From: Rhodothermales bacterium | GTDB taxonomy: Bacteria; Bacteroidota; Rhodothermia; Rhodothermales; Bin80 | DNA length: 34,089 bases | Reading direction: 5' to 3' | NCBI GenBank assembly: GCA_022821875.1 | Contig: JAJECV010000059.1 | Coordinates: 1 to 34,089 of the forward strand | Shown: piece by piece, positions 5,256 through 24,228 of the stretch | Position numbering within the stretch: the first letter of the stretch is position 1 | Layout of the letters: every line of letters begins with the position of its first letter | The notes under the pieces: model-generated | Seen by the model: only the letters and a program-made list of their open reading frames with translations | What the model was told of the DNA's origin: nothing | Databases searched by the model: none | Program-made: the position numbers and the translations under genes

Positions 5256-7139
5256 TTACACGACCGCCTGCGGCTTCAATCCAAGCAAGCGACAGGTAGA
5301 CAACGCCAGACTTGCCCGATTGAGCGTATAGAAATGAAAGTCATTCACCCCCTGATCCGATAACTTATGACAAAGTTCAGCTGCGACGTTCGCCGTGATG
5401 AACTCACAGGTCACCGTATCTTCATCGGTTCCCTGATACACCTCATGTAACCAGTCCGGCAACCTGACCTGACAAAGGTCCGCCATACGCTTCATTCCCT
5501 TAAAATTCGGTTGCAGCATGATCCCGGGCACAATCGGCATTGTTACGCCCCCTGCGCGTGCACGATCAAGAAAACTGAAATAGATCTCCGGCTCGAAGAA
5601 AAATTGGGTGATTGCACGGTCCGCACCGGCATCCTGCTTCGCTCGCAGGAATGCAATGTCCCGATCCCATCCCCGACTGTGGGGATGCTGCTCCGGGTAA
5701 CAGGAAACGCTGATTTCAAATCTTGCTCCAGGCTCAACGTCGTAGTTCCGAATCCCCTCAATGAGTTCAATACTATCACGGAAACCACCTGGATACTGTT
5801 CAAATTTTGCACTGATACCTTCGGGCGGATCCCCACGAAGTGCCACAATATGTCGTATGCCTGCTTTCCATAGGTCGGTAGCAACCTCCAGTACTTCCTC
5901 CTTCGTTGCGTTCACACAGGTGAGATGCGCAGCCGGCAATAATGGGGTATCCTGTGCAATTTTGGTCACAATCCGCTGTGTTCGGTTACGCGTAGAGCCG
6001 CCGGCCCCATAGGTCACCGATACAAAGCGTGGTGCCATCGGGGTCAGCCTTGCAACCGATTCCCACAACTTTGCCTCCATGCTATCGGATTTTGGAGGAA
6101 AAAATTCAAAAGAGACATTGGGAGAAGGCTTGGACTGCTTCTCCGCAACAGAGAGTCTGCTTATACTGGAATCTGCCGGATGACAGACGCGCCATGCCGC
6201 CTTCCAGATGAGCACACTGATACCTTTCTCCAGCGTCACCGGCGGTTCAAACCTTTTAGGCGGCTGCATGGAAAACCCGGCATTCTCCATCCACTGCATC
6301 ATATCATCTTCCTGAATGCCCAGCCGGTAATGTCCTTGGGATTCACGCAGGAACTCAAGTTCATGGGGCGCAAAATCCACGACAATCAACTGCCCGCCCG
6401 GTTTAAGAATCCGTGCTGCCTCTGTGATTACGTCCCCGGGTTTTTCGAGATAATGCAGCACCTGATGTATGATCACCAAATCCGCACTGTCACTCTCGAA
6501 AGGGGTGTTCGTTACATCTCCCTGCCGTACTCTTGCGTTCCCGATACCGGAACGATTGAGATTTGCCCGGGCTACCGTCAGCATATGATGGGATAGATCA
6601 AGTCCCTCGGCCTCCTCCGTATACGGTGCAAGCAGGATCAGCATCCGCCCCGTACCGGTTCCAAGATCTATGATCCGCTCAAACTGATGACGTTCAACCT
6701 GTTCAAGAATCGCACGCTCAATGGCTACATCAGGGTAATGCAATGCCCGTAGCCGATCCCAATCTTCGGCAATCTCCGAAAAATAGGAGGAAGCCGATTG
6801 TGCACGATCAGTACGTACACGCTGCAGAAAATTAAAATCCGTCGTGAACGGGTCGCTGTTGATCTCTAATTTTGAGAAGATCCCCTTCAACAGCCTGCCG
6901 GCCCACCCTCTATACTGGATTCGGTAAAATACCCATGCCCCTTCAGGCAGCCGTTCAACTAGACCCGCTTGGGTCAGTATTTTTAGATGATGCGAGAGTC
7001 GGGGTTGACTTTGATTGAGAATGCGCACCAGCTCCCCAACGGCAAGGTCGCCATAGCGCAACAACACGAGGATACGCAACCGGGTTGGCTCGCCCGCAGC
7101 TTTCAAACCACCAATCAGTAATCTCTGACAAACGTTCAT
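5256..7139 (-). CDS. metF: Fusion protein: ArsR-family HTH - SAM methyltransferase - methylenetetrahydrofolate reductase (MetF)
   Basis: A single 627-residue frame with three parts. Residues 1-95 are an ArsR/SmtB winged helix (GEPTRLRILVLL; QSQPRLSHHLKILTQAGLV). Residues 110-315 are a class I SAM-dependent methyltransferase fold (motif I IIDLGTGTGRM at 156-166, later HQVLHYLEKPGD and LKPGGQLIVVD). Residues 340-627 are a complete MetF, beginning NVSFEFFPPK with the catalytic Glu at 345 and containing YGAGGSTR and ALRGDPP. MetF makes 5-methyl-THF for the MetH proteins encoded next in the operon. ArsR-methyltransferase proteins encoded beside metF/metH are known as methionine-cycle (SAH-responsive, SahR-type) regulators in Proteobacteria. 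Here no in-frame ATG, GTG or TTG occurs in the linker at 310-340, so a separate MetF product is unlikely. An AT-rich repeat region lies just upstream. Confidence 0.93.
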   Translation of the reverse strand: MNVCQRLLIGGLKAAGEPTRLRILVLLRYGDLAVGELVRILNQSQPRLSHHLKILTQAGLVERLPEGAWVFYRIQYRGWAGRLLKGIFSKLEINSDPFTTDFNFLQRVRTDRAQSASSYFSEIAEDWDRLRALHYPDVAIERAILEQVERHQFERIIDLGTGTGRMLILLAPYTEEAEGLDLSHHMLTVARANLNRSGIGNARVRQGDVTNTPFESDSADLVIIHQVLHYLEKPGDVITEAARILKPGGQLIVVDFAPHELEFLRESQGHYRLGIQEDDMMQWMENAGFSMQPPKRFEPPVTLEKGISVLIWKAAWRVCHPADSSISRLSVAEKQSKPSPNVSFEFFPPKSDSMEAKLWESVARLTPMAPRFVSVTYGAGGSTRNRTQRIVTKIAQDTPLLPAAHLTCVNATKEEVLEVATDLWKAGIRHIVALRGDPPEGISAKFEQYPGGFRDSIELIEGIRNYDVEPGARFEISVSCYPEQHPHSRGWDRDIAFLRAKQDAGADRAITQFFFEPEIYFSFLDRARAGGVTMPIVPGIMLQPNFKGMKRMADLCQVRLPDWLHEVYQGTDEDTVTCEFITANVAAELCHKLSDQGVNDFHFYTLNRASLALSTCRLLGLKPQAVV

Positions 7140-12407: not shown

Positions 12408-14168
12408 TCATTTATCAAAAGAGTAATCAAAAATGCAGGAAGCCCCGATCATCTCCCGAAACCATAAAGTGACGCAGGTTCCATTGATATCTCTAAGGTC
12501 AACGGGCCCGTTCAGTTCAAACTGAACAGGTTGTGACTGCCCTTCATTGATCATTACGCTGTCCGCGTAGAGGTACATTCGATCATAGTTATCTAGAATT
12601 GGGTGAAGTCGTGCCTGCAGGCCAGATAGGTGCCCTGACTGATTGGCGATTATGTGTGATCCCCCCTCCTGTGCTGGTTGCATAGAAACATTCAACTGCC
12701 TATCAGGAAGATAACCGTGTTCCACATGAGACCAATACCCCTCAGCAGCACACATTACAGTCATCGGCAGTCTTGAGTGCATTACAAACTCAGCCATCCC
12801 CTCAACATCAGTCTGTTCCTCAAGGTATGTCTTGTTCGGATAGAGCATCAATATCTTCACGCCCTGTAGAGGCGTGGTATTGTCACTTCGGGATACAACG
12901 ACCCGCGCAAGAACCCCTTCCGGTTCGGGTGGTTTTGCCGCAGGTAAAGTAAGTCTCAATTCTCGTCCGCCGATTAACTCAAAAACTGGTCGCTGTCCCG
13001 AAAAAGCAAAGGTCTCATCTTCTATCACTGAAACTCCCTCCCCACGTCCTTCAATGAAGTATTCATGATCACCAGATCCTGGAAGGTCACCCACACGACA
13101 CTGCCCCAGCCGCGAAGCCAGCAATTCATTGCGCGTAAACTGGCTCGTACGCAGATCATCCACCGTCATTGAATTACTCAGACCACCAGGTGAATAAAGT
13201 TCCAGCCGATCTTCAAAAAGAAATAGACGAATCCGGGAACCACGCACCGAATAGTCACGATGCACGACTGCATTTACTACGGCCTCAAAGACTGCATGCA
13301 TGCTGAACTGCGGAAGTTCAATACGCGCGGGATCTTTGTACGCTGCCACACGCTGATTGGCCGCTACGAAGCGTATCGCCCCTCGGATCTGTTCATCAAG
13401 AGGCCCCCTAATGTCTCGGGCATCAATTTGATACTTAGCACCTAATGTGTCCCCTCGATAACATACAGCCTGAATCCAGGCATTCGGCAACCATTTGCTC
13501 GGATCTTTGGATGACAACAGTATACCTCCTATCGTGGCCTGCAAATTCCCCTGCGAGTCATTCTTTGCAAATTTCAATCTCGTGAGCACCATTTCATCTG
13601 AATCACGTCTGCGGGAACTCACATATTTCTGCCATACCTCCCTTTGAAGATTATTGATGCCAGTCTCCCTGACAATTCGGGTGTCAAATGAACTGAGATC
13701 CGACTGTCCACGCGCCTGTGATAATCGATTCACCTCGGCCATCTCCATAACGCGTTTACTATCTATCTTCCGACGGAAATACCCCCCAGGTGAGCGATGC
13801 ACCGCCACACTCTCAGGAATTTCAATTAAAAGTGCTCCTCCCTCTCCCGACTGTACTGGAATTCGTGAAACGTGACATTCCAGTTCTGGCTTGATACTTT
13901 CGGTGCAAATTTCGCGCACAAACGTAACGAGAGCATCAAGTTTTGCTGGCGTAAGAGATTGCGGTTGCCGATCATCGGTCACACCTAAGATTAGCCGTCC
14001 TCCGCTCCCGTTCCCAAACGCCGCAATCTCGTCTGCAAGCGAATCTCTTCGAGGTGCGGAGACTTTATCCCCGCGGAACTGAACGGACTTCAGTTCAAGG
14101 GTTGAATCCTCGCCTAAAGCAATCTGCTGCCACAACCTTTCAAGATTAACCAACGACATATCCATCAA
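12408..14168 (-). CDS. AlbA_2 (Schlafen-like) domain and ATPase-fold protein, intact copy
   Basis: A 586-residue protein. Residues 12-130 are an AlbA_2/Schlafen-type domain (LELKSVQFRGDKVSAPRR, FGNGSGGRLILGVTDD). Residues about 280-370 resemble the HATPase_c_4/COG2865 part (VFEAVVNAVVHRDYSVRG, LELYSPGGL). Residues about 415-500 look like a carboxypeptidase-regulatory-type beta domain (MLYPNKTYLEEQTDVEG), followed by a conserved C-terminal domain (YDRMYLYADSVMINEGQ). AlbA_2 proteins often accompany type I restriction loci; some Schlafen relatives cleave RNA, but no activity can be assigned from sequence. It is the last gene of the hsdM-led cluster, 69 bases after the tandem nucleotidyltransferase. 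A close paralogue lies at 19576-21329. Confidence 0.88.
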   Translation of the reverse strand: MMDMSLVNLERLWQQIALGEDSTLELKSVQFRGDKVSAPRRDSLADEIAAFGNGSGGRLILGVTDDRQPQSLTPAKLDALVTFVREICTESIKPELECHVSRIPVQSGEGGALLIEIPESVAVHRSPGGYFRRKIDSKRVMEMAEVNRLSQARGQSDLSSFDTRIVRETGINNLQREVWQKYVSSRRRDSDEMVLTRLKFAKNDSQGNLQATIGGILLSSKDPSKWLPNAWIQAVCYRGDTLGAKYQIDARDIRGPLDEQIRGAIRFVAANQRVAAYKDPARIELPQFSMHAVFEAVVNAVVHRDYSVRGSRIRLFLFEDRLELYSPGGLSNSMTVDDLRTSQFTRNELLASRLGQCRVGDLPGSGDHEYFIEGRGEGVSVIEDETFAFSGQRPVFELIGGRELRLTLPAAKPPEPEGVLARVVVSRSDNTTPLQGVKILMLYPNKTYLEEQTDVEGMAEFVMHSRLPMTVMCAAEGYWSHVEHGYLPDRQLNVSMQPAQEGGSHIIANQSGHLSGLQARLHPILDNYDRMYLYADSVMINEGQSQPVQFELNGPVDLRDINGTCVTLWFREMIGASCIFDYSFDK

Positions 14169-14237: not shown

Positions 14238-14960
14238 TCATTGCGTATCTAGGGGATGCATCATCAGGTTATTCCCTTTTTCCAACTTATTATGCCCAGT
14301 AACTACCTTCAAACGTTTCGCTCCGATTTTTAATGATTCTGCCATATTTTTCCACACAAACACATCTATCTTAAATGACAACTCATTCTCATTCAGCACC
14401 TCCCGCAAGTCACTGATCGCTTGCTTCTGCTCAGAAGACGAAAACACAACAAGGATGAATTCCGCCTCTGAAATAGATGCGTGCTTTCCCCTTAAATCAT
14501 AAATCCAGGCATCTGTATCCGGAAGATACTGCTCCAGTAACTCCTGAATGATCTTGAGTTCTTCCGCAGGAATATCAATCCCTGAACATTCTGAATTCAG
14601 AGGCACGAACTCTGTTCTATCTGAAGAGCAGATGGCATGACCGTTATCTGTAACTGCTGGACGTGCAAACCACTCAATACCGTGCCTCCGAATATGACTC
14701 TCTAATTCCTTGTTTCGTATTGAGTCATACAAAACTAGGTCAACCGTCTGCGCCATCGGAATCTCTTCCAGTGCAGCAGCAAGGCGAACTTGATCTGTTC
14801 GTGTTAACCGATTCCCGAATAAAGCGATATCCACATCGGAAGTGACCGTATTCGTACCGGTTGCTCTAGACCCAAACAATACGGCCCGCTCTACACGATC
14901 ATTGGCCGCAATTTCGGCGATTATCGCCTCTTGATGAATGTCTTTGATGCCGCCTGTCAT
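14238..14960 (-). CDS. Tandem nucleotidyltransferase protein, second domain degenerate
   Basis: A 240-residue protein. The first domain (about 8-100) is an MNT-type nucleotidyltransferase with GSRATGTNTVTSDVDIAL (G30-S31, D42, D44) and a third acidic residue D74 in TVDLVLYD. A second domain (about 132-220) follows the same fold order (ELKIIQELLEQYLPD... then FKIDVFVWKNMAESL), close to the domain fused to HsdS next door. However, its GSR is replaced by YDLRGK and SDLDL by EAEFIL, so it should be catalytically dead. MNT proteins neutralise HEPN toxins, in known cases by adding AMP residues to a tyrosine of the toxin. Its ATG overlaps the preceding HEPN stop by 4 bases. Confidence 0.8.
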   Translation of the reverse strand: MTGGIKDIHQEAIIAEIAANDRVERAVLFGSRATGTNTVTSDVDIALFGNRLTRTDQVRLAAALEEIPMAQTVDLVLYDSIRNKELESHIRRHGIEWFARPAVTDNGHAICSSDRTEFVPLNSECSGIDIPAEELKIIQELLEQYLPDTDAWIYDLRGKHASISEAEFILVVFSSSEQKQAISDLREVLNENELSFKIDVFVWKNMAESLKIGAKRLKVVTGHNKLEKGNNLMMHPLDTQ

Positions 14961-15370
14961 AGTGACTGTCTAGCCTCCAAAGTTAGGCGGAGCCGTAGAA
15001 GAACAGGATGATAATCCTCTTTGATGATCAATTTGGCTTCCTGTGCAAGATCTCCGTCGTAGGTGCGACTCAACAGATTACGCCTTTGCAGAGCATCTAA
15101 TAAGGTTTCACAGTCGCTCTCGTCAATGTACCCAGCCTCAAAACCCTTACGGATCACTGCTCTTGGTGTCTTTTCATTAAATCCTTCATAGAAGAGTAGA
15201 TCCTTAAGAACCTTCCACGACAATTCAAAGCAATTCTCGAATCTCTTAATCAGCCCGGCAAGTTCCAGATCACTATATTCTTCGAGTTCGCAAGCCTCCG
15301 TCAATCGCGCAAGTGCCGCTTTATAATTATCCAGTCGCTGCTTCCAGCGTAGTTCATCTGAATTACTCAT
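14957..15370 (-). CDS. HEPN (HI0074-type) protein with altered catalytic motif
   Basis: A 137-residue all-helical protein of the nucleotidyltransferase substrate-binding (HI0074/HEPN) family, recognised by FENCFELSWKVLKDLL, TPRAVIRKGFEAG and QRRNLLSRTYD. The active HEPN RNase signature is RX4HXY. Here it reads R97-NLLS-R102-T-Y104, so the catalytic His is Arg (codon CGC, one change from CAC). The protein is therefore probably inactive as an RNase but may still bind the nucleotidyltransferase. It overlaps the HsdS gene by 8 bases upstream and the tandem nucleotidyltransferase by 4 bases downstream, so it is firmly inside the operon. Confidence 0.88.
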   Translation of the reverse strand: MSNSDELRWKQRLDNYKAALARLTEACELEEYSDLELAGLIKRFENCFELSWKVLKDLLFYEGFNEKTPRAVIRKGFEAGYIDESDCETLLDALQRRNLLSRTYDGDLAQEAKLIIKEDYHPVLLRLRLTLEARQSL

Positions 15371-17204
15371 TTCCCGCCCCCGCCCAAAATAGCCCGCTCA
15401 AATTCGTCTGAATCGCAAGTTCAAGTCTACTTGCTTCCATCAATTGCTCACGAAGTTCATCTGCAAGCCGCTTCATTGTCCACGTATACGAATCATCCTG
15501 GTGGTCTCGTGATGGTCGCCCAGCACATTCCTCTGCTATCGAAATATACTCTTGGTTGTAGATATGGCCCTGAGACTCCCCGCCATCGGTCAGGGCTTTG
15601 GGGATCCCCCCAATGTCTATTTTCCCAGAAACAAGATCCGGCAGAAGACTGTCCCGAATATTGGCTAAAGCATGGTTTTCTGAGACATTGTTCCTAATGC
15701 GCTGATCCAGCGGAGTAATCACAGATTCCCAGAGAGCAATGACTCGTAGTGATGGTTCAATCACTTGGAGTGCCTGAAGGAATTCACCATCTATTTTCCT
15801 TTTGACTAGGCTGCGATGCCTATGTCGCCTTAATTCCTGCTGGAGAGACAGTACCGAGTAATAGGTGAAAGAGGCGGACCCTGATTTATGGCGTAATGCT
15901 GTGAGCCCGCCTCCAATGCAGCATTCGTCCCATACCATATTAATGTCACCCATAGGGGCTTGCCTGCTTACAAGTGTGTCCCCCGGCTTTGCTATACTGA
16001 TTGGTGCTGAACAGTACTCTCTTTTCTTAGGATACCTGAATCCAAAATCTGTGCTATCTCGGAAGAATGGTATACCTTCAACATACTCGTCACAGGAATT
16101 CGCCAATGGAGATTTCCCCGCCGTGAGAAAAAAGCTCTCACCAATAGTACCATTCCTCCATCCTGCTGGTATGCCATCAGGCCCAATATAATGGGGGATC
16201 GCATCATCTGCCTTGCCAGCCAATCCTTTATCCCGGCCCTCCATTTTAGCCCGCACCGGATCGAAATCAACAAACCACGATTTGAACAATGCCTGCCCCA
16301 TTGACTCTAGAGTCGCATTCATCCGCCGGTTGACCTCAATCTTGTCATCAATTGCGCCAAGGACATGGGCTATCACTTTTTGCTCAGAGATATTCTCTGG
16401 CAAATTAATTCGCATACACTCCAAAGCTGACCAAGATAGTTCATCGAAGACTACCCCTGCCGAGTACTTTTCTAATTCATGAGTATTGGCCTTTAGCCAG
16501 TAATACAGAAAATCAGAATGATAACCGGGGTCAGGGATAAGGCTGAGTAACTCCTCATTCGTTGCTACAGGATTTGCTGCTACAGCCACAGAGCCAATTG
16601 ACTTACGGCTTGCAATCAGAAGTGTGCCTGTGGGCACAATTCTCGCAGAGCAGGCATTTAGCCCTTCTTGTGAGAGACTTTGAATTCCATGCTGAATATG
16701 ACGATCATGATTCCTGGACAGATCACGAAGTGTTAACCACGGAATATCGCCGTCAAAACAGGAAGCATCCTCTTTAAAGGGGGTGCCGCCAACTACGATT
16801 TCCCCAATCTTGCCAATCCGGTGGGTAACCCAGCCTACCGGGCATGAAGATGGTTCTTTTCGGGATGAATGATCATTTTTGATCATAACCGGACTTTGTA
16901 ACGTCACCGCATGCTCGTGGATGATCTTGCGAAAATAGTCCTTCGTTCGTGCCCAATCCACAATATCTACACGAAAAGGAAGTCTTGATTCAACAAATTC
17001 ATCATACAATGCTAAATGTGTAGGCCAAGGCAAGGGCTTCTCTCCCATGACTGCAAGATCAAGGTCAGAGTAATCCCTAGCCGTCCAAGTGGCGCGGGAC
17101 CCAAATGCCAGTACCTTTCTATCTGGAATATGCCGCCGGATCGCATCAAAGACAATTTCCAAATGATCTGGACGTAAATCAATAACTGGATGAATCGTAC
17201 TCAT
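15363..17204 (-). CDS. hsdS: Nucleotidyltransferase fused to type I restriction specificity subunit (NTase-HsdS)
   Basis: A 613-residue protein. Residues 10-105 are a nucleotidyltransferase domain (FGSRATWTARDYSDLDLAVMG with G35-S36, D47, D49, and D80 in FRVDIVDW), all catalytic positions kept. From about 122 it is a complete HsdS: target-recognition domain 1 (PVGWVTHRIGKIGEIVVGG onward), the central helix (VIAHVLGAIDDKIEVNRRM, ALFKSWFVDFDPVRAK), recognition domain 2 (PAGWRNGTIGESF onward) and the second helix (PLDQRIRNNVSENHAL, DSLLPDLVSGKID). A tail at 577-606 (MKRLADELREQ, RLELAIQTNL) resembles the end of HsdM. HsdS directs the methyltransferase to its DNA site. It sits 17 bases after the intact HEPN gene, giving that HEPN a fused nucleotidyltransferase partner. 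Confidence 0.93.
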   Translation of the reverse strand: MSTIHPVIDLRPDHLEIVFDAIRRHIPDRKVLAFGSRATWTARDYSDLDLAVMGEKPLPWPTHLALYDEFVESRLPFRVDIVDWARTKDYFRKIIHEHAVTLQSPVMIKNDHSSRKEPSSCPVGWVTHRIGKIGEIVVGGTPFKEDASCFDGDIPWLTLRDLSRNHDRHIQHGIQSLSQEGLNACSARIVPTGTLLIASRKSIGSVAVAANPVATNEELLSLIPDPGYHSDFLYYWLKANTHELEKYSAGVVFDELSWSALECMRINLPENISEQKVIAHVLGAIDDKIEVNRRMNATLESMGQALFKSWFVDFDPVRAKMEGRDKGLAGKADDAIPHYIGPDGIPAGWRNGTIGESFFLTAGKSPLANSCDEYVEGIPFFRDSTDFGFRYPKKREYCSAPISIAKPGDTLVSRQAPMGDINMVWDECCIGGGLTALRHKSGSASFTYYSVLSLQQELRRHRHRSLVKRKIDGEFLQALQVIEPSLRVIALWESVITPLDQRIRNNVSENHALANIRDSLLPDLVSGKIDIGGIPKALTDGGESQGHIYNQEYISIAEECAGRPSRDHQDDSYTWTMKRLADELREQLMEASRLELAIQTNLSGLFWAGAGNE

Positions 17205-17221
17205 CTAAACATAGTGGATAC

Positions 17222-17647
17222 TCACTTCATTTCTCCTCTTTCCAGTTCATTTAACAAAGCACTGGCATCAGGTATAAATTCCACTATCATGTCATAGACC
17301 TCATCTGCTATTTCAGAATCGTAAACGTGTGTCGTGTGGTTTCGATTGTTATGATACCCAATCCAGATCTCAAAATCATGGATCAAATGATTCTCGGCGG
17401 CGAGACGGAAGAAATGGTTTTCAGATATACCGCGCACATCTTGAGGAGACATATTCTCTTTGAGCCGGCGCTCTATGAGTTTCCAACAGAGTTCATAGGT
17501 CATCTCAAAGTGCTTAATCACACCTGCTCGAATGGCGATCTGCTGATACTTAGAAAGTTGATTCATCGAATCCTCATCTTCACTGACCTCGTGAACCTTG
17601 GTAAGCGTATCAAGTGCATTACTTAAATGTCCTAAGACTATTGGCAT
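17222..17647 (-). CDS. HEPN (HI0074-type) protein with intact RX4HXY motif, candidate toxin
   Basis: A 141-residue helical protein of the nucleotidyltransferase substrate-binding family (FEMTYELCWKLIERRL, MSPQDVRGISENHFFRLA, FEIWIGYHNNRNHTTHVYD). The HEPN RNase signature is complete: R102-NHTT-H107-V-Y109. In characterised HEPN/MNT pairs this motif cuts RNA and the MNT partner silences it by modifying the Tyr. The gene lies between hsdM (67 bases upstream) and the nucleotidyltransferase-HsdS fusion (17 bases downstream), so it would be co-expressed with both. Toxicity is inferred from family knowledge only. Confidence 0.9.
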   Translation of the reverse strand: MPIVLGHLSNALDTLTKVHEVSEDEDSMNQLSKYQQIAIRAGVIKHFEMTYELCWKLIERRLKENMSPQDVRGISENHFFRLAAENHLIHDFEIWIGYHNNRNHTTHVYDSEIADEVYDMIVEFIPDASALLNELERGEMK

Positions 17648-17714: not shown

Positions 17715-19349
17715 TCAATCCATTTCCCGGTTATTCTCGTCTATCCCAATATCATACGTTTTTTCTCCCAGCGAAAACCCAAGCATGTCGAGATTCGCTC
17801 TAATCTCGACATCCAGCCGCCTTCCTTCCTGCTGCTGCTCTTTCAACTCAGATACCAGATGCTTCATTTTGTCCTCAAACAATTCATCATCCTCTTCTTC
17901 CGGTTCCACCCCAACATATCGGCCTGGAGTCAATACATGGCCGTGCTTGCGAATCTCTTCCAGCGTAGCACTCTTGCAAAAGCCTAAAACATCCTCGTAG
18001 TCCGATGCCTTCCGTCCCTTTTGCCACGAATGATAAGTCCTCGTGATGCGAATAATCTCATCCCCGGTCAGTTCGCGATGGGCTCTGCTCACCATCCTGC
18101 CGAACTTACGCGCATCAATGAATAAAACCTCTTCAGGTCGTTTACGCTCCCGGGATAGGAACCATAAGCAGGCGGGGATTTGGGTTGAATAGAAAAGCTG
18201 CCCAGGAAGTGCAACCATACAATCAACCAAACCATTTTCGATGAGATTCTTTCGGATATCTGCCTCATTCTTCTGGCCCGATGACATGGATCCATTCGCC
18301 AATACAAAACCAGCCGTACCACCAGGAGATAAATGATGTACGATGTGCTGAACCCAGGCAAAGTTAGCATTACTCGCCGGCGGTACTCCGTATTTCCAGC
18401 GCTTATCCTCAATTAGACGCTCACCTCCCCAATTTGAAATATTAAACGGCGGATTCGCCAGAATAAAATCGGCCTTGAGATCTGGATGCTGGTCATTGTG
18501 AAAACTGTCCCCCTGTGCGATTTGCCCCTCAATACCGCGGATGGCAAGATTCATCTTGGCCAGACGCAAAGTCGTAGGATTTGATTCCTGACCATAAATT
18601 GAAATATTATCCCTCGCCTTGCCTCCATTCCCGTTACCCGTAGCATGTGCATCAATAAATTCTATGGACTGCACAAACATCCCCGATGAGCCGCAGCACG
18701 GATCATACACACGACCTTGATAGGGCTCCAGCATCTCAACCAAAATCTGAACAATACTGCGCGGAGTATAGAACTCCCCTCCTCTTTTGCCCTCAGCACT
18801 GGCAAATTGGGATAAAAAATACTCATACACACGGCCAAGAATATCTCTTGAGCGAGCCTCTTCACCACCTACACGAATATTGCTGATCACATCTATGAGT
18901 TGTCCAAGTCGCTTCTTATTAAGACCGGAACGGCCGTAGTTTTTGGGAAGGGTTCCCTGCAAACTCTTATTTTCTCGCTCGATTGCAATCATCGCATCGT
19001 CCACATTCTGACCGATAGTAGGCTGGCGGGCATTTGCACTCAGATGTGCCCAACGCGCATCAGAAGGCACCCAGAAAATATTTTCCCCGCGGTACTCATC
19101 CGGATCCTCTGGGTCGGCACCTTCATCAAGTTCACTTTCGAGTACCTCACGACGCTCCTCAAATGCATCCGAAATATACTTGAGAAAAAGTAGCCCCAGA
19201 ACTACATGCTTATATTCGGCAGCATCCATGGAGCCACGTAACGCATTGGCCATCTGCCAAAGCTTTACCTGATATTCCGACATCATTTCCTGATCTCCGG
19301 CCACCTTAGCGTTCCCTGCTTTCGCCGCATCTCGCAGTTTCGTTGACAT
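17715..19349 (-). CDS. hsdM: Type I restriction-modification N6-adenine methyltransferase (HsdM)
   Basis: A 544-residue protein of normal HsdM length. The N-terminal HsdM helical domain is at about 25-160 ([32 protein letters not shown]). The methyltransferase domain has motif [12 protein letters not shown], motif [13 protein letters not shown] (214-225) and motif IV NPPF at 299-302. The C-terminal helix at 495-524 ([21 protein letters not shown]) normally contacts HsdS. It methylates adenine at sites chosen by HsdS, using SAM. It is the first gene of the cluster; no hsdR is found in the window, so whether any restriction activity accompanies it is open. The [10 protein letters not shown] start is the first ATG before the HsdM_N domain. 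Confidence 0.96.
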
Positions 19350-19575: not shown

Positions 19576-21329
19576 TTAGTCCATCTCATAGGAGTAGTCA
19601 AAGATACACGAAGTTCCAACCATCTCACGAAACCAAAGTGTCGCACTGTTGCCTTCTGTATCCAGTAGATGTATTGGCTCATTCAGTATAAATTGAACTG
19701 GCTGAGATTGGCCCTCGTTGATAAGGATACTGTCTGCATAGAGATAGGGGCGATCCAGGTCATCTAACATCGGATTCAGATACCCTTGTATTCCAGAGAG
19801 TGAACCTGAACGGTTCGGTATGATCTGGGAACCACCTCCCTGAACAGGCTGCAGGGTAACATGAAGAGGAGCATCCGGCATATAATTCCTTTCCACATGT
19901 GCCTTGAAACCCTCGGCCGCACACATCACGGTCATCGGGAGCCTGGAATATAGAACAAAATCAGCATGACCGTACGCATTCGTGTGCGCTTCATATATGT
20001 TTTGTCTGGATAGAGAATCAACACATGCACATTTGGGTGCGGCGCTTGGGTATCCTCATATTTAACTGAGATGCGGGCCACGATTCCGCCGGCTACGGGG
20101 GGCTGTGCTGCAGGTAAACGAACCCGTAGTTCGCGCTGACCAATTAACTCAAAATTTGCTCGCTGTCCCGATAAAGCAAATGTTCTGTCTTGAATGAGAC
20201 GTACCCCCTCACCTCTTGCTTCAACAAAGTACCTGCGCCCGCCAACATCCTGAAGATCACCGACACGACATTGATGCAATCTTGAGACCAGCAGTTCGTT
20301 ACGTGTAAACTGACTTGTTCGCAAATCGTCTACCGTCATGGAATTGCATAGACCGCCGGGAGAGTACAGTTCCAGTTTATTTCTAAACATGAATAGACGA
20401 ATCCGAGATCCACGCACCGCATAGTCCCGGTGTACAACTGCATTAACAACAGCCTCAAAAACTGCCCGCATGCTAAATTGGGGCACATCCGCCCGTGCAG
20501 GATCTTTATATGCTGCTACGCGCAAATTGGATTTTACAAAGCGTACGGCCTTTCGTATGTGATCATCCAAAGGGCCTGTGATATTGCGAGCGTCAATTTG
20601 ATGATCCGCATTAAGTTGATCCCCGCTATAACATACTGCTTGTATCCATGCATTCGGAAACCATTCGCGCGGGTCGTTTGTCGCCAGTAATAAACCCGCT
20701 GCCGTCGCCCGCAAATGACCGTCAGGGCCATGCTTGACAAATCTCAATTTTCTAAGTTCCACATCATCGGAATCAAGTTCTCGTGACACTGCATATCTGC
20801 GCCATAAATCCCGTTGAAGAGTATTAATCCCGGCATTTCTTACAATTTGTGAGTCAAACGAATTCATATCAGATTGCCCACGTATCCGGGATAATCGGTT
20901 TACATCATCTATTTCCATAGCACGTTTACTATCCAGCAAACGATCAAAATATCCGCTGGGAGAACGATGTACGGTTGCCCCCTCAGGAATTTCAACTAAA
21001 ACTACATCCCCTTCACTGGACTCTATGGGAATTCGCAGAACTTTGACGTTGGGTACCGGCTTAATACTTTCGGTACAGATTTCACGCACATATCTGACTA
21101 GGACATCAAGTTTTGATGATGTCAGGGGCTGTGGTTGCCGATCATCGGTCACACCTAAGATTAACCGTCCACCGCTTGCATTGGCAAATGCTGCAATCTC
21201 ATCTGCGAGCGAATCCCGCCGAGGTGCAGAAACCCTGTCCCCACGGAATCTGACAGATTTCAACTCAAGTTCCGAATCCTCGCCTGAAATGATCTGCCTC
21301 CACAACTTTTTGTGATTCACCGAGGTCAT
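19576..21329 (-). pseudogene. AlbA_2 (Schlafen-like) ATPase-fold gene, second copy, frameshifted
   Basis: A paralogue of the gene at 12408-14168 with the same domain order: AlbA_2 (LELKSVRFRGDRVSAPRR, ASGGRLILGVTDD), HATPase_c_4-like (VFEAVVNAVVHRDYAVRG, LELYSPGGL), regulatory beta domain and C-terminal domain (RPYLYADSILINEGQ). After LILYPDKTYM the frame is lost by one missing base near 19988-19994 (minus-strand ATGAAGCGC). In the restored frame the protein continues AHTNAYGHADFVLYSRLPM, matching the intact copy, and joins the downstream frame at MTVMCAAEG. Full length would be about 585 residues. All the rest is intact, so the lesion is recent, or a sequencing error. It lies 226 bases upstream of hsdM in the same direction. 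Confidence 0.85.
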
Positions 21330-22984: not shown

Positions 22985-24228
22985 TCACCCCTTATGGATA
23001 AGAAACAGGTACTCGCAATTTGGCGAATCAGCACCATTCAACCACTCATTGGTCCACCTCATGTTTGCCATTACATTACGTTTGTAGTTTACTTTGACAA
23101 ATTCCACCACCTGACCGCAATTCCGGATCATTGAATCAATTTCGGCGGCGGTAGTGCGTCCTCCAGAACTGTAGGACAGGATAATCCATTTCGCACGGGT
23201 TGAGGTAATCAATCGCTCAAGCGCCTCCACGGCCATATATCTGCCCGTGGATGGATTTTTTCTGAACTCTTCAAATATAGAGGCCGAGACCTTGTCGGAA
23301 GAATCTACCCGGCGTTTTGCCTTACCAAAGAGTTCCGGTTTGTCATTCATGCAAATACTGGTCCATACATGATAATAGGCCGTGTATCTGACTCGGGATG
23401 GTGGCATTTTCTCATTATTGGAGCCGTAAGGGGGATCGTAGTAGGCAAGATCAACCTCCATATCTGAAACATCAAAAATATCTCTTTGCAATACTTCATT
23501 CTCCTCTCTGGAAATAAATAACCTGGGGACTTCCAACTGAAGCATTTTGTAGGAGCGCTTCGACCATTCTCTCAAGTAAGAGGCAAAGTGTCCAATCGTG
23601 CTGTCCACACGGTCTAATCCCATAATAAGACTGGTGAGTGCGACCGCCTCCTCAATGGGAGAAAGGCCCATACGCTCTATCTCTGACCGAATCCCGTCTA
23701 ACTTGCGTGTGTTGTGAATCTGCCAGGGTTTCTTGAGACCATCATGCTGCTCTGACGGTTGACCATTGGCAGGTGCGATCCCGCCATAGTGTTCTGTGAA
23801 CCACCCATTTTCGGGCGAAACCGAATTTAGATGATTGATGATCCCCTCGTAGTGCATTCTGGGCGCTCGGTTCATCAGGTAACAGATCCCAAACACCCTG
23901 GACCATGCAGATATATCGTTGCAAAAAACCTTAGAGCCTCTTGCAAAACCCTTGATCTTGAGGGTTTTTGCTCACCTGAGTGCACCCGGGAGCGCTTTTT
24001 AGCCTAGATTGTTCGTTTTGCAAGAACCTCCTTATATCCCGACTGTGAAAGTGCCTGCGAGACACGGGTTGTACCAGAAAATCCGTCCAACACGCTCTTT
24101 GCCCCGGTCTGATGTGCAAGGCGCAAAATATGGGGCAGTAATTTGAGTTTTGAGCCAGCATATTTGATTCCTTCTGTTGCAGGAACCTTCACGACAGGTG
24201 CGCCAAATAATGTATAATTCACGGACAT
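22985..24228 (-). pseudogene. D12-class DNA adenine methylase gene interrupted by a 97-bp element
   Basis: The first part (from ATG 24228) has YAGSKLKLLPHIL and VLDGFSGTTRVSQAL, the motif X and motif I regions of D12-class N6-adenine methylases. The second part has NDISAWSRVFGICYLMN and the catalytic YYDPPYG. Between them lies a 97-bp element with a 4-base target duplication. Removing the element and one CTTA restores an uninterrupted frame of 381 codons, reading SGYK-VFCNDIS across the junction. As it stands, the protein stops soon after the element begins; a downstream ATG at 23896 could only give a fragment lacking motif I. No restriction endonuclease is nearby, so it was probably a solitary methylase. 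The gene sits between two copies of the lolD 3' end. Confidence 0.9.
23934..24030. mobile_element. 97-bp MITE-like element with terminal inverted repeats and CTTA target duplication
   Basis: Terminal repeats are GAGCCTCTTGCAAAAC (23934-23949) and, read inward from the other end, GAGGTTCTTGCAAAAC (24030-24015), matching at 14 of 16 positions. The flanks are CTTA at 23930-23933 and CTTA at 24031-24034. It encodes no protein. Inside, CAAAACCCT and AGGGTTTTTG (about 23943-23970) form a further hairpin. Size, ends and duplication fit a non-autonomous insertion element mobilised by a transposase encoded elsewhere; a 4-base duplication occurs in parts of the IS5 superfamily, but the parent family is not certain. 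Confidence 0.85.

Follow-up and report, generated by a model that had tools for sequence, protein, structure and literature searches.

In the window, by which we mean the whole analysed stretch of 34,089 nucleotides from the draft genome of a marine Rhodothermales bacterium (3.68 Mb in 147 contigs, 95.75% complete), an adenine methylase gene is split by 97 bp of noncoding DNA. This locus raises the questions of what the inserted element is, what may have moved it there, and whether the methylase could be switched on again by its excision. The answer that we favour, with a probability of about 0.93, is that a MITE derived from an IS1182-family insertion sequence was moved in trans into the gene, and that it recently inactivated an orphan methylase whose nuclease had been lost earlier.

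The split methylase gene and its empty counterparts

The features of the insertion are given in Table 1.

Table 1. Coordinates of the element, its target duplication and the two methylase fragments in the window.
Feature	Position	Strand	Remarks
MITE, 97 bp, nonautonomous, without coding capacity	23934..24030	+	~40 copies in own genome, ~38 in sister species
Target-site duplication CTTA, left copy	23930..23933	.	Single TAAG/CTTA at orthologous empty site in G004
Target-site duplication CTTA, right copy	24031..24034	.	
Left terminal inverted repeat GAGCCTCTTGCAAAAC	23934..23949	+	Identical to end of autonomous IS1182-like element
Right terminal inverted repeat GAGGTTCTTGCAAAAC (outside-in)	24015..24030	-	14/16 match to left repeat
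Methylase N-terminal fragment, residues 1-66, SAM-binding DGFSGTTR	24031..24228	-	In-silico element removal, G004 orthologue
Methylase C-terminal fragment, catalytic DPPY	22985..23933	-	Pfam MethyltransfD12; PADLOC MTase_II via 96% identical orthologue

The whole methylase gene spans 22985-24228 on the minus strand, and the element cuts it after residue 66. With the element in place no reading frame crosses the insertion site, and the frames of the gene run into stops inside the 97 bp. Deletion of 101 bp (23930-24030) results in a single open frame of 390 codons; translation from the ATG gives a protein of 380 aa, or 381 codons when the stop is counted. The sequence-only reading had described terminal repeats matching at 14 of 16 positions with CTTA on both sides, and a 381-codon D12 methylase reading SGYK-VFCNDISAWS across the junction once 101 bases are removed. 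An inverted-arm search (16-nt arms, 88% complementary) and direct reading gave the same ends and duplication, and the restored frame was reproduced by script. The uninterrupted orthologue matches PF02086 (2.1e-19) and PADLOC MTase_II (9.5e-148) and contains both an FSGT motif I and a DPPY motif; on these matches the interrupted gene is classified as a type II N6-adenine methylase of the D12 class. As judged from the D12 family, neither fragment should be active when motif I and DPPY are separated. The separation of the SAM-binding motif from the DPPY half supports the proposed loss of the methylase, and it is plausible that methylation is altered at the motif of this enzyme. The type I methylase encoded nearby (17715-19349) belongs to a separate system.

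In the sister species (genome G004) the locus is colinear, with an ABC-transporter gene, the methylase gene and nadA at 95-97% DNA identity, and it lacks these 101 bp. The methylase of the sister species is an uninterrupted protein of 380 aa, 96% identical, that reads CAGTCGGGATATAAGGTTTTTTGCAACGAT across the site, where a single TAAG is present. The methylase homologues of the congeners G006 (83%) and G005 (61%) are likewise uninterrupted. Presence of the 97 bases in every methylase homologue had been named beforehand as evidence that would speak against an insertion; they are absent from all three congeneric homologues. Two more pairs of filled and empty sites, each differing by 97+4 bp, were found. 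One consists of copy L010 (duplication TTGT), nested inside an older copy, and its counterpart L139 in the sister species, and the other of copy L100 (ACGG) and its counterpart on contig C16 of the window's own genome (G000). Since about 40 copies are present in the same genome and the gene is uninterrupted in the sister species, the insertion is not due to chance.

The interruption could also be an artefact of assembly or binning, given the draft state of the genome (147 contigs) and the assignment of L100, another contig carrying the MITE, to a differently labelled MAG. The exact duplication, however, flanks the insert within one 34-kb contig, and the flanks are colinear with the sister species at 95-97% identity. 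Because a chimera would not create a 4-bp target duplication, we give an artefact next to no chance. L100 itself (JAJEFJ010000105.1, labelled Candidatus Latescibacterota), which is colinear with contig C16, looks like a misbinned Rhodothermales contig.

A MITE family and its candidate mobiliser

About 40 copies, 70-100% identical, were found when the window's own genome was searched, as the sequence-only reading had proposed, and about 38 are present in the sister species. Perfect 4-bp duplications flank 16 of the 41 scored copies, against 0.16 expected; a 5-bp duplication flanks one copy, and duplications of 2, 3 or 6-9 bp flank none. The duplicated sequences are varied (for instance AGAC, GGCA, TTCG, TGAA and GTTG) and have no obvious motif in common. 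A MITE of the IS5 subgroup (YTAR target) or of IS630 (TA target) is ruled out by these varied 4-bp duplications. The element is a MITE: it is short and noncoding, has inverted repeats and a duplication of fixed length, is present in many copies, has empty sites, and shares its ends with an insertion sequence. The earlier view of a clean transposon insertion is thus borne out by the empty orthologous site, the other copies and the autonomous relative described below. The family is new and of a kind already known. Bacterial MITEs include the Correia elements in Neisseria and RUP in Streptococcus pneumoniae, with an IS630 parent and TA as target. The window element resembles these in its length of about 100 bp, its inverted repeats and target duplications, its many diverged noncoding copies and its ends, which are like those of an autonomous insertion sequence, but it has another end sequence and, probably, another parent family (IS1182 with a 4-bp duplication, not IS630 with TA).

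The history of the family was studied on 23 copies outside the own genome, 22 from the sister species and L100. Ten or so of these share flanks with a copy in the own genome, and for eight the match is clear at either side (pairs L097/L019, L098/L010, L103/L021, L141/L028, L146/L012, L149/L027, L151/L017 and L152/L020). The perfect duplication has been lost in most shared-site copies and is kept in about half of the unshared ones; therefore, the family was active both before and after the split of the two species. The closest other copy in the own genome, L002, is 99% identical to the window element, and its flanks have no colinear match in the sister species. No full copy is present in other members of the genus; G001 and G006 contain different short elements bearing the same ends. 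Named records with the MITE belong to the Rhodothermales MAG jk18x9bins.87, which, as the positions coincide, is G004 itself or something very close to it, and a search of plasmid DNA with the 97-bp sequence gave no match. At L039 (~244-289), two left ends of the MITE form a near-perfect palindrome of 46 bp, possibly a smaller MITE derivative. A second short repeat family, with several matches in the sister species, adjoins the MITE copy at L002 (~1400-1475).

The internal palindromes of the element, its predicted RNA fold (z -3.66) and the location of most copies outside long reading frames would also be in line with a functional structured repeat of the REP/BIME kind, acting as RNA or by binding protein, instead of a transposon. 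The target duplications and the three empty sites, however, show transposition, and a bias towards intergenic positions would be expected from purifying selection. Moreover, no Rfam family was matched, and covariation is weak: 3 pairs have two-sided changes, 52 of 500 shuffles attain the covariation score, and relatedness could suffice for this. We consider a structured repeat of this kind highly improbable, although secondary co-option of single MITE copies is possible.

A search for an autonomous relative, also proposed from the sequence, revealed an intact insertion sequence with the same ends in the congener G006. This element (L070, 1159-2804; 1646 bp) has perfect 17-bp ends GAGCCTCTTGCAAAACC, is flanked by a duplicated ATTA and encodes an intact transposase of 395 aa, and the sequence that it has in common with the MITE is limited to the terminal 16-19 bp. 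The best NCBIfam match of the transposase is IS1182, at 85 bits and hence below the 270-bit cut-off. Transposases annotated as IS1182 on proteobacterial plasmids (of Comamonas, Aeromonas with ISUnCu17, and Acinetobacter) share 38-42% identity with it, and their elements have ends GAGGCTCTTGCAGAAC / GAGCCTCTTGCAAAAG / GAGGCACTTGCAAAAC and 4-bp duplications TGGT, ATGA and TTAG; one further Acinetobacter copy has unequal flanks. The IS1182 elements with GAGSCWCTTGCAAAAC-like ends (ISUnCu17 on an Aeromonas caviae plasmid and the insertion sequence on Comamonas pBHB), the transposases of which are related to that of the G006 element, thus resemble the window element in their ends and 4-bp duplications, but the latter has no transposase gene and the ends alone are in common. 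ISPse1, an IS1182-family element captured in Paracoccus, is 1653 bp long, its ends match at 16/16 positions and its target duplication is 4 bp (PMC3281130); it resembles the G006 element in length, ends and duplication as far as its description, not its sequence, goes. IS1272 of Staphylococcus, of the same nominal family, targets hairpins and makes no target duplication (PMC4923244), whereas the elements studied here duplicate 4 bp of varied sequence; the family is therefore mixed in this respect.

In the window's own draft genome, an end-pattern search and analysis of the DDE_Tnp_1 loci detected no intact IS1182-like element or transposase with GAGCMTCTTGCAAAAC ends. An IS1182-like transposase remnant with stops is present at C129:30903-31400 (35% identical). 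None of the 13 other DDE_Tnp_1 loci has matching ends, and no transposase adjoins the unpaired ends at C39:6351, C91:20411 and C19:1467 in the stretches read. Repeats often drop out of incomplete draft assemblies. From the shared ends and duplication length we infer that the IS1182 type is the likely mobiliser. The MITE would be a short noncoding descendant of an IS1182-family insertion sequence, in which nothing of the parent but the terminal inverted repeats is retained; a DDE transposase of this family would move it in trans, and a staggered cut would give the 4-bp duplication of a target of any sequence. The copies would then define an IS1182-type MITE family in a Rhodothermales lineage.

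The orphan methylase and the question of a switch

In G006 the methylase gene adjoins a gene matching the PADLOC REase_II model PDLC03568 (7e-125), and in G005 it adjoins a broken relative. No relative was found in the window's own genome or in that of the sister species. This is most simply explained if the common ancestor of the pair already had the methylase as an orphan; loss of the methylase would then leave no cognate nuclease to cut the genome. The window branch has 13 synonymous and 6 nonsynonymous substitutions and the branch of the sister species 11 and 8, all of them small numbers. The lack of extra gene decay, with similar substitutions on both branches, together with the copy that is 99% identical, argues that the methylase was hit recently. 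Among the ~30 copies with long enough flanks, the methylase insertion is the sole clear split of a known gene; copy L017 may split a 158-codon frame, which is doubtful, and copy L018 lies at a gene junction. This rarity is expected if selection usually removes such hits. In the mechanism that we propose, the cognate restriction enzyme would have gone before the split from the sister species, and the MITE would recently have entered the orphan gene, parting motif I (DGFSGT) from the DPPY half; loss of the methylase without risk of self-cutting would be tolerated, and the event was presumably close to neutral. The genomes would thus present a clean stepwise loss of a restriction-modification system, from congeners with an intact or broken nuclease, through a sister pair without it, to a methylase lost to a MITE. 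As a separate observation, the L018 copy (1501-1598) is an older one located exactly between apparent mcrB and mcrC genes, where the upstream gene takes its final codons from it.

The sequence-only reading had raised the possibility of an on/off switch by excision. Precise excision of the MITE at a useful rate, and its re-insertion, driven by a transposase absent from the draft assembly, would then restore the orphan methylase in part of the population and make it, with part of the methylome, reversible (phase-variable). It is true that deletion of the element and one duplication gives back the exact open frame, that the methylase gene has no other accumulated lesion, and that the ends can form a hairpin (z -1.84; z -3.66), favouring replication slippage, but the same features are expected from any recent insertion. 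Only the filled state was assembled and the duplication is merely 4 bp. In addition, the eight pairs of copies that the two species have at the same site stay in place and decay, mostly without perfect duplications, searches of the own draft genome turned up no intact transposase with MITE ends, and with the restriction partner gone there is no restriction-modification function to toggle. The idea of a switch is thus unsupported, and we regard it as very unlikely. Phase-variable methylases (phasevarions) switch at high rate by simple repeats or invertible DNA. The locus is like these in that the methylase gene is off in the sequenced genome, and differs in that a transposon insertion without sign of reversal is responsible. 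A switch, if true, would be a transposon-based way to vary the methylome; nothing found points there. Among the titles and abstracts listed for MITEs of Rhodothermales or sponge symbionts, for precise MITE excision and for methylases switched by MITEs, none was pertinent.

Other features of the window

A type I specificity subunit (Methylase_S) with an N-terminal nucleotidyltransferase fusion (Polbeta/NTP_transf_2) is encoded at 15363-17204 on the minus strand. Two NTase_sub_bind genes and another nucleotidyltransferase gene flank it (14238-15370 and 17222-17647). Together they resemble an MNT/HEPN pair that is interleaved with the type I hsdM/hsdS genes; no hsdR was recognised within the window. 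Two genes that are ~70% identical (12408-14168 and 19932-21329, minus strand) flank the type I hsdM/hsdS genes like a long direct repeat, and a single gene of the sister species aligns to both; the gene at 12408-14168 has Schlafen/AlbA_2 and HATPase_c_4 domains. Finally, a 627-aa frame at 5256-7139 (minus strand) joins an ArsR-type HTH, a SAM methyltransferase and a methylenetetrahydrofolate reductase, and adjoins an apparent methionine synthase that is divided between two frames.
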